A program made the position numbers and the translations under genes. Below the pieces are notes generated by a model. It saw nothing but the letters and a program-made list of their open reading frames with translations. It ran no database searches and was not told the origin of the DNA. Shown here piece by piece: positions 507-55,175 of a stretch of DNA of 57,457 bases. The stretch's first letter is position 1; every line of letters starts with the position of its first letter. Origin of the DNA: Robiginitomaculum sp. (lineage in GTDB: Bacteria > Pseudomonadota > Alphaproteobacteria > Caulobacterales > Maricaulaceae); NCBI GenBank assembly GCA_021776565.1, contig JAJFFQ010000010.1:1-57457 (forward strand), in the 5' to 3' direction.

Positions 507-577
507 GTGCTATCGCGACGGTAAACCTCGCTATTTGTGCACGTGATTCTTGTGCTATCGCTTTGCTATATGAGCAC
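507..577 (+). repeat. Tandem pair of 45-bp-period palindromic repeats (copy pair 1)
   Basis: Unit A (507-542) starts GTGCTATCGCG and ends CGCTATTTGTGCAC. After a 9-base spacer, GTGATTCTT, unit B (552-577) starts GTGCTATCGC and ends ATATGAGCAC; it is shortened in the middle. The ends GTGC/GCAC are inverted, so each unit can fold into an imperfect hairpin. The distance between unit starts is 45 bases, identical to the pair at 50870. Related copies lie inside the aminotransferase gene at 54366-54457. Confidence 0.75.
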
Positions 578-2821: not shown

Positions 2822-3636
2822 AATGGCTCCCCCCGGGCAGCGCAGGGTCGCACATAAAGCGGCGTAAAGGCACCAGACTGGCGCAGTTCAGCCTTGCCTT
2901 CCCTGGCCAGTTCCAGCGAAGCCACCAGAGAGCTTGCCAGCATGGATGAACGTGGCGGCTCCTCTGCACCCGGTTTTAGCGATCTGGGCAAAAGATCGTC
3001 CAAAGACGTCCATTCGCGTATTTTCCCCAATACGCGCGCCAGTCGTTCGCGGGCCTCTTCCAGGGCGTAAACTATGGGCGCTTTCATGGTTAAATGCGCC
3101 CGGGCCACCCGGGAGCGACGCACCGCATAGGCCTTGAGCAAGTCATAAATACTGGCTTCAAAAATCGGTGAGGTAATACGCCGCACGCCTTCTGGTGCGC
3201 CGCGTATGAATATGTTGATCCCGGTGCGCTGGCGTTGCATTAATGCAGTGGAGGCAAGGCGCATGGCGTGAAGCCGACGCAAGCGAAAGGCCAGACGAAC
3301 CGCCATTTCCTCGCCACTTGGTTCCTCAGTTTCAGATTGTGGTTTGGGCAGTAAAAGCCGTGATTTCAAATAAGCAAGCCAGGAGGCCATAACCAGATAA
3401 TCTGCCGCCAGTTCAATACGAACCTCTTTGATACGTTCGATAAATGCCAAATATTGTTCGGCAAGTTCAAGAATGGAGATATTGCGCAAATCTACTTTTT
3501 GCTTGCGGGCCAGCTCCAAAAGCACATGCAGCGGCCCCTCAAAACCATCAAGATCAACCATGAGCGCCGCACCATCGCCAAGTGCTTTTTGTGCGGCCTC
3601 AAAGGGCAGGTCTTCCTCAAAAACCTCCACGCTCAT
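2818..3636 (-). CDS. scpA: Segregation and condensation protein A (kleisin)
   Basis: Kleisin subunit that bridges the two heads of Smc. The 272-residue product begins with the conserved N-terminal block VDLDGFEGPLHVLLELARKQ that contacts the Smc neck, continues with ADYLVMASWLAYLKSRLLLP, and ends in the C-terminal winged helix. I choose ATG 3636 because a strong AGGGGGGGCAG site lies immediately upstream and this ATG overlaps the nagZ stop as ATGA; a start 10 codons earlier would not have this signal. Operon order is nagZ-scpA-scpB-tatABC. Confidence 0.94.
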   Translation of the reverse strand: MSVEVFEEDLPFEAAQKALGDGAALMVDLDGFEGPLHVLLELARKQKVDLRNISILELAEQYLAFIERIKEVRIELAADYLVMASWLAYLKSRLLLPKPQSETEEPSGEEMAVRLAFRLRRLHAMRLASTALMQRQRTGINIFIRGAPEGVRRITSPIFEASIYDLLKAYAVRRSRVARAHLTMKAPIVYALEEARERLARVLGKIREWTSLDDLLPRSLKPGAEEPPRSSMLASSLVASLELAREGKAELRQSGAFTPLYVRPCAARGEPL

Positions 3637-50781: not shown

Positions 50782-50858
50782 GGCTGGGTAGCTCAGTTGG
50801 TTAGAGCGCAGGACTCATAATCCTGAGGTCGGGAGTTCAAATCTCCCCCCCGCCACCA
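50782..50858 (+). tRNA. tRNA-Met(CAT), elongator type
   Basis: A 77-nt tRNA with encoded CCA. The anticodon stem CAGGA/TCCTG carries the loop CTCATAA, anticodon CAT. The D-arm and T-arm (GGGAG/CTCCC, TTCAAAT) are standard. In the acceptor stem GGCTGGG against CCCCGCC, position 4 (T, 50785) faces C (50851), a mismatch where relatives have a G-C pair. A lysidine-modified tRNA-Ile2 is the alternative, but the overall sequence fits elongator Met. Confidence 0.9.
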
Positions 50859-50869
50859 TTTTTTTTCTT

Positions 50870-50948
50870 GTGCTATCGCGGTGCTTGCGCCCGCTATTTG
50901 AGCACGGGCTTCTTGTGCTATCGCGACGGCTTCACTCGGTATCTATGT
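50870..50948 (+). repeat. Tandem pair of 45-bp-period palindromic repeats (copy pair 2)
   Basis: Unit C (50870-50905) starts GTGCTATCGCG and ends CGCTATTTGAGCAC. After the spacer GGGCTTCTT, unit D starts GTGCTATCGCG at 50915 but decays by about 50948. The unit-to-unit distance is 45 bases as at 507-552, and the spacers share TTCTT. The pair begins 11 bases after the tRNA-Met gene. Confidence 0.75.
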
Positions 50949-50957
50949 CTACGCCCT

Positions 50958-51078
50958 CCTCTCCTTGGGGAGAGGATTGAGGTGAGGGGAGAAGGGGCGC
51001 ACCTGTCATTACCCGGCTTGTCCGGGTAATCCAGTCAAGCTTCAACACCGCATGGATTGTCGGAACAAGTCCGACAAT
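50958..51078. repeat. Three REP-like hairpins in a row
   Basis: CCTCTCC/GGAGAGG around TTGG (50958-50975), ATTACCCGG/CCGGGTAAT around CTTGT (51008-51030) and ATTGTCGGA/TCCGACAAT around ACAAG (51056-51078). All are perfect or nearly so, and each has its own sequence, so three repeat types are nested in about 120 bases. Confidence 0.65.
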
Positions 51079-53963: not shown

Positions 53964-55175
53964 TCAGCCAAGCTCTTCTTTCAATGCCCCAAGGCATTTA
54001 TCCACATTTCCCCGGCTTGCACTGGCACCCATCAGGCCGATGCGCCAGGCCTTGCCGGCCAGCGCACCAAGCCCTGCACCAATTTCAAGGTTATGCTTTT
54101 CAAGAAGTGCCTTGCGTATTGCCGCTTCGTCGCTGACCCCTGTCGGAATACAAACCGTGTTGAGCTGTGGCAAGCGGTAGGCTTTATCCACCAAAAAGCT
54201 AAAGCCCAAAGCCTCCAAACCATCACGCAAATGCTCATGACAGGTCTGATGACGGGCAAAGGCCGCATCCAACCCTTCTTCGCGCAGCATGAGAAGCCCC
54301 TCATGCAGGGCATACATGGCATTGATTGGCGCGGTGTGATGATAGGATCGTGCTGGGTTTTTAGTTGCGCTATCGCGATGCTGGCGCTCGCTATTTGAGC
54401 GCGCACTTTTTTCCTCTGCGCTATCGCGATGCTGGCGCTCGCTATTTGAGCGCGCACCTTGCCAGTAATTCATTACCAGAGACAAATCCAGAAACCAGCT
54501 TTGCACCGGAGTTTTGCGGGCCTCCAGGACGGCTATGGCCCGGGGGCCAAAACTAATGGGGGAAAGCCCCGGCGGCACGGACAGGCATTTTTGCGTGCCT
54601 GAATAAATTGCATCCACACCCCATTCATCAACCTTCACCGGCACCCCGCCAAGGGATGTAACCGCATCAACAATTGTCAAACAGCCATGTGCTTGTGCCA
54701 GTGCGCACAGGGTCTTGGCGTCGGATAATACCCCGGTGGAGGTTTCCGCGTGGACAAAGGCCAGAGTTTTGGCTTTGGGGTGAGTGTGTAAAACCTCCTC
54801 AACCTTTTGTGGATCAACCGGCTGGCCCCACTCATCATTGACAACAATTGCCTTGCCGCCGGCACGGGTAACATTTTCCACCATGCGCGTGCCAAAAACG
54901 CCGTTGACGCAAACAATAACGCTATCTCCCGGCTCTACAAGATTGACAAAGCAGGTTTCCATACCGGCAGAACCGGGTGCAGACACCGGAAACGTCAGGG
55001 TATATTCCGTTTGAAATGCATATCGTAACAGAGCCTTGATCTCGTCCATCAAGTCAATGAACTGCGGATCCAGATGACCGATAGTGGGCCGCGCCATAGC
55101 CTCCAATATCCGCACTGGCACATCAGATGGCCCCGGCCCCATCAAGATTTTGGAAATGGGGTGAAAACTGTTCAT
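53964..55175 (-). CDS. Alanine--glyoxylate/serine--pyruvate aminotransferase family protein with a repeat insertion
   Basis: A 403-residue PLP enzyme of class V. It has GPGPSDVPVRILEAMARPTI, SAPGSAGMETCF, HAETSTGVL and the PLP Lys196 in SGTQKCLSVPPG. After NYWQG (residue 240) the family normally continues within a few residues to YHHTAPIN. Here 33 residues are inserted (241-273), made of two copies of ARSNSERQHRDSA separated by EEKS and encoded by palindromic repeats at 54366-54457. The frame is kept and the rest of the protein is intact, so it may still be active. Confidence 0.9.
   Translation of the reverse strand: MNSFHPISKILMGPGPSDVPVRILEAMARPTIGHLDPQFIDLMDEIKALLRYAFQTEYTLTFPVSAPGSAGMETCFVNLVEPGDSVIVCVNGVFGTRMVENVTRAGGKAIVVNDEWGQPVDPQKVEEVLHTHPKAKTLAFVHAETSTGVLSDAKTLCALAQAHGCLTIVDAVTSLGGVPVKVDEWGVDAIYSGTQKCLSVPPGLSPISFGPRAIAVLEARKTPVQSWFLDLSLVMNYWQGARSNSERQHRDSAEEKSARSNSERQHRDSATKNPARSYHHTAPINAMYALHEGLLMLREEGLDAAFARHQTCHEHLRDGLEALGFSFLVDKAYRLPQLNTVCIPTGVSDEAAIRKALLEKHNLEIGAGLGALAGKAWRIGLMGASASRGNVDKCLGALKEELG
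54366..54457 (-). repeat. In-frame tandem palindromic repeats inside the aminotransferase gene (copy pair 3)
   Basis: Two identical 41-base copies (54366-54406, 54417-54457) start TGCGCTATCGCGATGC and end CGCTATTTGAGCGCGCAC, with 10 bases between. Unit distance is 51, a multiple of three. They match the repeats at 507 and 50870 in the conserved left part CTATCGCG and right part CGCTATTTGAGC; the outer GTGC/GCAC has become GCGC/GCGC, which still pairs. Read on the coding strand, each gives ARSNSERQHRDSA. Confidence 0.85.

Follow-up and report, generated by a model that had tools for sequence, protein, structure and literature searches.

A dispersed hairpin repeat of Robiginitomaculum found behind tRNA genes and in frame within protein genes

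In the genome of a Robiginitomaculum sp. we found a dispersed family of short hairpin repeats with a T-rich leader and a covarying stem, which stands in one polarised position behind tRNA genes and is present in frame in some members, and absent from other members, of sets of orthologous protein genes. The family was met in a window of 57,457 nucleotides (contig JAJFFQ010000010.1 of assembly GCA_021776565.1), the whole stretch of DNA that was analysed. It is likely to be a non-autonomous mobile hairpin element, consisting of the leader and a hairpin of 26 or 36 nt, that lies mainly between genes and at times in protein genes. Movement of the element, rather than inheritance and loss only, is our inference; no transposition was observed.

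An in-frame insert in an aminotransferase gene

The gene at 53964..55175 (minus strand) is an open frame of 403 codons for a class V (AGT-fold) aminotransferase (Pfam Aminotran_5, E 3.8e-23). An exact 41-base repeat begins at 54366 and again at 54417, a spacing of 51 bases, both copies falling inside the open frame, as the first-pass annotation had claimed. Each contains a 36-nt hairpin unit on the plus strand, antisense to the gene: unit 1 at 54367..54402 (covariance model 59.5 bits, E 9.3e-18 in the source genome) and unit 2, of the same sequence by the 41-base identity, at 54418..54453 (59.5 bits). The E-value is to be read knowing that the forms on which the model was trained include the aminotransferase unit itself. 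By orthologue alignment the insert comprises 35 codons (54351..54455, minus strand; residues 241-275) where most element-free orthologues have 3, a net gain of 32 residues, which corrects the earlier figure of 33.

The alignment had 20 rows, two of them probably repeats of the same genomes, leaving 18 distinct orthologues (96 homologous loci had been collected earlier). Four of these carry an in-frame copy, namely the source genome with two 36-nt units and G006, G012 and G017 with one 27-nt short-form unit each; another two, G004 and G010, are longer there by four residues; and the remaining 12 are copy-free, with 3 residues at the site in ten of them and 7 and 8 in two distant ones. A homologous segment in repeat-free relatives would have refuted the first reading, and none was seen, the copy-free orthologues having 3 to 8 residues against 35. 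The closest named relatives of the enzyme belong to Robiginitomaculum metagenome-assembled genomes (MAGs), and the source genome (2.9 Mb, 74 contigs, 96% complete) is presumably a MAG itself. A search of viral contigs found no relatives of the aminotransferase.

In an aminotransferase tree built with the insert left out, the copy-free G009 falls outside a grouping of eight genomes (the source genome, G017, G003, G012, G002, G006, G004 and G010) that has a bootstrap value of 71, against 96 when G009 is included; inner nodes have values between 35 and 96. Within this group carriers and non-carriers intermingle. Because the carriers do not form a clade and inner support is weak, a single old insertion followed by several clean losses and repeated insertion at one site are both compatible with the tree and cannot be distinguished.

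The AlphaFold model of the protein (mean pLDDT 85.1) was matched to the alanine-glyoxylate aminotransferase 1vjo at 43% identity, and its segment 240-277 is the only one with pLDDT below 50 over three or more residues. This fits a flexible loop, as a prediction of the model only, with the caveat that a stretch absent from most alignment rows scores low for that alone.

A dispersed and covarying hairpin family

The element has a T-rich leader of about 8 nt followed by a hairpin of 26 or 36 nt, with an outer stem of 5 bp, an asymmetric internal loop of 3 and 6 nt (AYC against TATWTG-like) whose bases are conserved, and a variable inner stem of 4+2 bp, of which the short form has only 2 pairs. 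The first-pass annotation's palindrome is therefore partly borne out, as a hairpin with an asymmetric internal loop and not as a perfect palindrome. Distinct units were 25-40 nt long, mainly 36 and 26, under a search pattern limited to 24-40 nt. TTT occurs within 10 nt on the 5' side in 140 of 195 distinct units (a set that includes some from other genera), compared with 13 of 195 in the stretch further 5'; it is also fairly common within 10 nt on the 3' side (74 of 195), which weakens the leader contrast.

The covariance model was built from 20 aligned forms (14 of 36 nt and six of 26 nt, those of 30 and 35 nt being omitted), drawn from units at 65 loci. These 20 forms gave 20 cells with a double-sided change and none with a one-sided change, and three of five covariation measures beat all 500 shuffles; the other two, double-change pairs and further pair types, were not above the shuffles. 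A wider alignment of 110 distinct rows (the 150 best among 186 matches, drawn from 97 sources) had 97.5% of cells paired, 127 double-sided against 22 one-sided changes, and changes on both sides in eight of the 11 pairs, with none of 500 shuffles reaching any of the five measures; slid controls fell to 31-52% paired. This wider alignment was fitted to the model and is hence biased towards it. Most of the changes are Watson-Crick, with few G-U pairs, a pattern that we read, by inference, as selection on DNA strands rather than on RNA.

Further copies lie in the window on the plus strand. At 507..542 a 36-nt unit (54.3 bits) sits inside a larger dispersed composite repeat and is followed head to tail by a 26-nt short-form unit at 552..577 (43.1 bits). 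A 36-nt unit at 50870..50905 (59 bits) follows a tRNA-Met (CAT) gene on the same strand (50782..50858, by ARAGORN), 11 nt from its 3' end, and has after it a degenerate second unit at 50915..50948, whose 5' part matches; this last rests on a pattern match at 50915 and on its sequence, and was unreported by the covariance model. The first-pass annotation had placed the same repeats at 507-577 and 50870-50948, which is correct insofar as family members are found there, though they are not identical copies. Two side observations belong to these places. The composite repeat (361-640 of the window) has a left part rich in GGGTCA/CCCTTA, then the hairpin units, then ACTTATCCCCACCC...TATAAT; 16 of 53 clusters of the source genome lie inside such a composite, several of them near contig ends, and some of that genome's hairpins seem nested in other, larger palindromes (e.g. 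C28:17912 and C35:8236). Near the copy at 50870, positions 51004-51030 of the window read TGTCATTACCCGGCTTGTCCGGGTAAT, which resembles a classical REP of the CGTC type.

Covariance search of the source genome returned at least 93 hits at E up to 10, at least 84 of them at E up to 0.01. These counts are lower bounds, with 150 of 1503 candidates scored there and 113 per genome in the genus-wide search. Two half-patterns matched 40 and 39 times in the source genome, against five and three for the reversed-pattern control, and chance origin of the repeat is ruled out by the covariance scores together with this excess. The 82 units of 20 bits or more fall into 51 arrays (31 single, 20 multiple), so that the other possible refutation of the first reading, an absence of further genomic copies, also failed. 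All 20 multi-unit arrays run head to tail on a single strand, and among the 93 hits the unit pairs within 100 nt of each other comprised 52 on the same strand and none on opposite strands. The commonest linker is GTGATTCTT, seen 13 times, which makes for periods of 45 and 35 bp. Hits occurred in 17 of the 18 genomes of the genus (129 in G005 and 132 in G014) and in 14 of 43 genomes outside it, six of these 14 having a single, marginal hit. A known Rfam RNA family was rejected: cmscan at gathering thresholds over the window and four loci matched tRNAs only. The only Y1-type transposase found in the source genome (L255, C12:56932-57291, a 149-residue open frame), which we take to be IS200-like by its size, is on a contig without a hairpin hit.

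The first-pass annotation had proposed counting copies inside genes, and further in-frame copies were found in three other cellular protein families. In a short-chain dehydrogenase/reductase (SDR; Pfam adh_short_C2) a copy is present in three of the 16 rows that reach the site (the source genome, G017 and G004) and absent from 12, G011 having four extra residues; a fragment from G012 stops short of the site and was left out. This copy, which in the source genome scores 19.8 bits and hence lies outside the 82 units, is read in another frame than that of the aminotransferase (RAQ...STAI.Q). Hsp33 (Pfam HSP33) has a copy only in G003 (one of 24 aligned rows), as 27 residues between HED and GVR. 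A small conserved protein without a Pfam match has copies in its C-terminal tail in six of 24 rows, two of them eroded. The in-frame cellular copies span two reading frames, and the element runs antisense to its host gene in every one of the four families. Host genes are under purifying selection, with dN/dS of 0.04-0.11 for the aminotransferase, 0.16-0.19 for Hsp33 and 0.12-0.19 for the SDR, ratios that are rough because pS reaches 0.66. The window unit is open in four of its six frames, the most-used antisense frame giving the very hydrophilic RSNSERQHRDS; by our inference nothing in the element need be designed for coding, its shortness, its open frames and selection being enough. Translation of the inserts is likewise inferred, in the absence of protein expression data, and many long open frames around units are probably spurious, some running through tRNA genes.

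Placement behind tRNA genes and copies in phages and plasmids

Across four genomes, 107 clusters were counted, and 29 of them follow the 3' end of a tRNA gene at 6-21 nt, all on the tRNA strand (G000, 7 of 51; G010, 11 of 27; G012, 5 of 12; G017, 6 of 17), and none of the 107 lies on the 5' side of a tRNA gene or on the opposite strand within 35 nt. Chance would give fewer than 0.04 such adjacencies per genome, assuming 60 tRNA genes in each. The count used the hits of G010, G012 and G017 less four with E above 0.01; hits of G003 and G006 were not used. Over the wider collection of loci, a tRNA 3' end lies within 30 nt of 42 of 195 distinct units; these tRNAs cover eleven amino-acid types, one of the tRNAs being untyped. 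Part of the tRNA-side copies are common by descent; the spread over eleven types stands nonetheless.

Among 65 tRNA genes examined, a canonical terminator (by a rule of our own) was found within 70 nt of none of the 42 that bear the element, compared with six of the 23 others (Fisher P = 0.0012), and within 200 nt of seven of the 42 compared with 12 of the 23. The 23 include several with degenerate copies missed by the pattern, for which the numbers were not corrected, and the shortage of normal terminators may also mean that they were displaced by the array. Degenerate tRNA 3' halves (GGTTCGA..., mostly with a CACCA end; L298, L303, L131 and L125) come after some of the units and at L298 alternate with hairpins, as if tRNA ends had possibly been duplicated with the element. 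The flank of the Hsp33 insertion, GGTTCAAA...CCACCATTTTT, looks similar to a tRNA 3' half. Apart from the hairpin family, a second tRNA-tail repeat, CCATTTCTTTTGTCTCGCGGCGCGAAG..., was noticed behind tRNA-Val and tRNA-Lys and, as a variant, behind tRNA-Met (L057, L105, L358 and L369); it is possible that tRNA 3' ends in the genus have been colonised by more than one repeat.

No match to a pattern for the 36-nt form was found in IMG/VR viral contigs, while the 26-nt form matched 82 units in 67 stretches, with 68 distinct contexts. One viral copy is in frame in a P2-type terminase large subunit (residues 305-313), a stretch that is absent from two of three relatives and shorter in one; others adjoin a tail-fibre J match and fall inside a ParB-like one. 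These assignments come from a PHROGs scan of sixteen phage-like proteins from the source genome and viral contigs, of which only the terminase insert was compared with relatives. BLAST of the 26-nt form against named phages gave three weak matches of no weight. Of 21 matching plasmid records in PLSDB, eight reach E 2e-3 or better and come without exception from Alphaproteobacteria (Asticcacaulis, Rhodovulum, Cereibacter, a Rhodobacteraceae strain and Pseudosulfitobacter); the remaining 13, at E 0.9 or more, are weak and for the most part carry no weight.

Some single replicons deserve mention. On Rhodovulum plasmid pRSMBA (L514) a 26-nt copy lies between tRNA-Ile and an apparent 16S rRNA 3' end, i.e., in an rRNA operon; on Asticcacaulis excentricus replicons of two strains (L510 and L518) copies adjoin repA, one of them between repA and parB. 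The viral contig L485 has the only opposite-strand neighbour pair of 26-nt units noticed, at 3166 (+) and 3229 (-). The phage-like contig C41 of the source genome (L108 and L109, with lysozyme and a ParB-like protein) has more than 10 hairpin hits, several within open frames, sense and antisense.

Known repeats, the preferred reading and its rivals

The element works like the Rickettsia palindromic elements (RPEs) and intragenic REPs, yet in both cases at least one of the defining features tested is missing from it. RPEs are long stem-loops of 105-146 bp found between genes and in frame in conserved protein genes, and the one RPE-bearing protein tested, a guanylate kinase, was translated and active (PMC2229807). 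Our repeats share with them intergenic and in-frame placement in conserved genes with copy-free orthologues, but with a hairpin of mostly 26-36 nt plus leader they do not meet the RPE length criterion, and they differ also in lying outside the Rickettsiales and in phages, in their polarised adjacency to tRNAs and in their head-to-tail arrays. The likeness to Rickettsia elements drawn by the first-pass annotation is thus apt as a working analogy. Its claim of novelty on the ground of another alphaproteobacterial host failed as such: coding REPs outside Rickettsia are not new, since intragenic REPs were reported in E. lithoralis and S. alaskensis (Di Nocera et al. 2013, PMC3733652). Both are free-living alphaproteobacteria. 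The new point is that the family is untagged and holds a polarised position behind tRNA genes; no earlier description of it was found in the open-access literature searched, where subscription papers are mostly absent.

The CGTC REPs, which include RPE-4 and RPE-6, have an unpaired CGTC-type tag (TGTC, CCTC) at one end, a stem of 8-9 bp and a loop of 4-5 nt (PMC3733652). The new element resembles them in size, bacterial class, lack of a dedicated transposase and intragenic copies in several species, but it has no tag, an outer stem of 5 bp, an asymmetric internal loop and head-to-tail arrays, whereas in CGTC REPs head-head dimers predominate, and head-tail dimers are absent or rare in CGTC and GTAG REPs (PMC3733652). 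Within 10 nt of the two ends of the 195 distinct units, CGTC on either strand was found 6 and 12 times, against 32 and 9 in distal controls, TGTC 3 and 5 times (13 and 11) and CCTC 2 and 7 times (10 and 17), which is no enrichment. With GTAG REPs and their RAYT transposases the element shares short imperfect hairpins, high copy number and some copies in genes (PMC3733652), but it lacks the GTAG tag (2 and 1 of 195 at the two ends, against 8 and 2 in distal controls; no enrichment), and most of the genus genomes searched yielded no member of the transposase family. Y1 transposase/RAYT (PF01797) was missing from our search results for 10 of 16 genus genomes, G005 and G014 with their more than 110 hits each included, several genomes being incomplete; a co-resident RAYT as the mover was rejected on this result. 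Coding MITEs (ERIC/RU-1, Correia) are likewise small mobile repeats fused in frame to genes, but they are longer, at about 100-200 bp, and have terminal inverted repeats and listed target duplications (PMC2229807); in the new element the hairpin arms are inverted repeats, and comparison of filled and empty sites by eye gave no clear target-site duplication. PARCEL is also coding DNA with dyad symmetry dispersed in genomes; it is a 25-residue amphipathic motif in variable-number tandem repeats in open frames without assigned function (PMC2996958), as opposed to units of about 9-12 residues in unrelated enzymes.

In the reading we prefer, the element would multiply head to tail and settle mainly between genes, most characteristically just behind tRNA genes. 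At times it would land in a protein gene, where the surviving insertions would be those that keep the frame, bring no stop and lie in a tolerant loop; the encoded peptide would therefore be a neutral insert. Copies may move as single-stranded DNA hairpins, an inference from the mostly Watson-Crick changes and the rarity of G-U pairs. No associated enzyme is known to us, and the moving enzyme may be supplied from elsewhere, by phage or host. Behind tRNAs the hairpin may serve as a transcript 3' structure replacing the normal terminator.

The rival that survives best sees the hairpins first of all as functional RNA within tRNA transcripts, marking the 3' boundary or acting in processing or termination, and the other copies as by-products of occasional duplication, not selfish mobile DNA. 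It is supported by the 29 clusters that stand 6-21 nt behind tRNAs, always on the same strand, by the missing canonical terminators within 70 nt (0 of 42 against 6 of 23) and by the conserved internal-loop bases. Against it, 78 of the 107 clusters are away from tRNAs, copies occur also in phage DNA, plasmid DNA and genes, the low G-U rate speaks against selection on RNA alone, and the source-genome tRNA cases shown have no T-run after the hairpin, unlike intrinsic terminators. On balance we lean against this account without being able to set it aside.

We give less credit to an account in which insertion is driven at tRNA 3' ends by a tyrosine integrase, with the hairpin as a component of the att site and the copies as leftovers of integrated phages or islands. 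That tRNA 3' ends are the main landmark, that degenerate tRNA 3' halves with a CACCA end come after some units, at one locus with another unit beyond, and that copies occur in phage contigs all favor it; but GGTTCG is found within 30 nt on the 3' side of only 10 of 195 units, and no tRNA 3' half is evident at the aminotransferase and SDR copies, and we think it improbable.

A bolder reading is also doubtful: that this is an undescribed alphaproteobacterial mini-element specialised for tRNA gene 3' ends, whose mobile form can include tRNA 3' half, leader and hairpin, which has replaced terminators at many tRNA genes and spread on phages and plasmids, and whose in-gene copies arose where a tRNA-end-like sequence was struck. 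The tRNA-end-like Hsp33 flank favors it, and if true it would make the element a bacterial parallel to tRNA-derived short interspersed elements.

There is very little to recommend membership, through an overlooked tag, of the CGTC- or GTAG-tagged REPs moved by a RAYT transposase. The 20-40 bp size, intergenic abundance and intragenic cases do match REPs (PMC3733652), and a tag-type-looking repeat, TGTCATTACCCGG...CCGGGTAAT, adjoins a window copy; but neither tag is enriched near the hairpin, the source-genome arrays run head to tail and PF01797 is missing as described above. Plain membership was rejected, as it fails on the tag. Finally, an ordinary variable aminotransferase loop that happens to resemble the repeat, for which only the 3-8-residue loops of copy-free orthologues speak, is rejected by the orthologue alignment, and an assembly artefact by the short-form copies at the same site in three other genus genomes, both being all but excluded given also that the three named MAGs showing these inserts have unrelated isolate names and that the inserted DNA is part of a family with copies in the dozens.

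In the literature consulted, the fullest accounts of coding palindromes concern Rickettsia, where intracellular genome decay offers a ready explanation. For the non-autonomous mobile element that we favor, the same behaviour is found outside the Rickettsiales, in phages and in bacteria that are probably free-living (an inference), with presence/absence pairs in ordinary enzymes, and the tolerance, gain and loss of such inserts thereby become testable in other organisms. That the element stands so strictly on one side of tRNA genes provides a strong handle on how it chooses its sites, and bears on whether a selfish hairpin can be built into a tRNA transcription unit.
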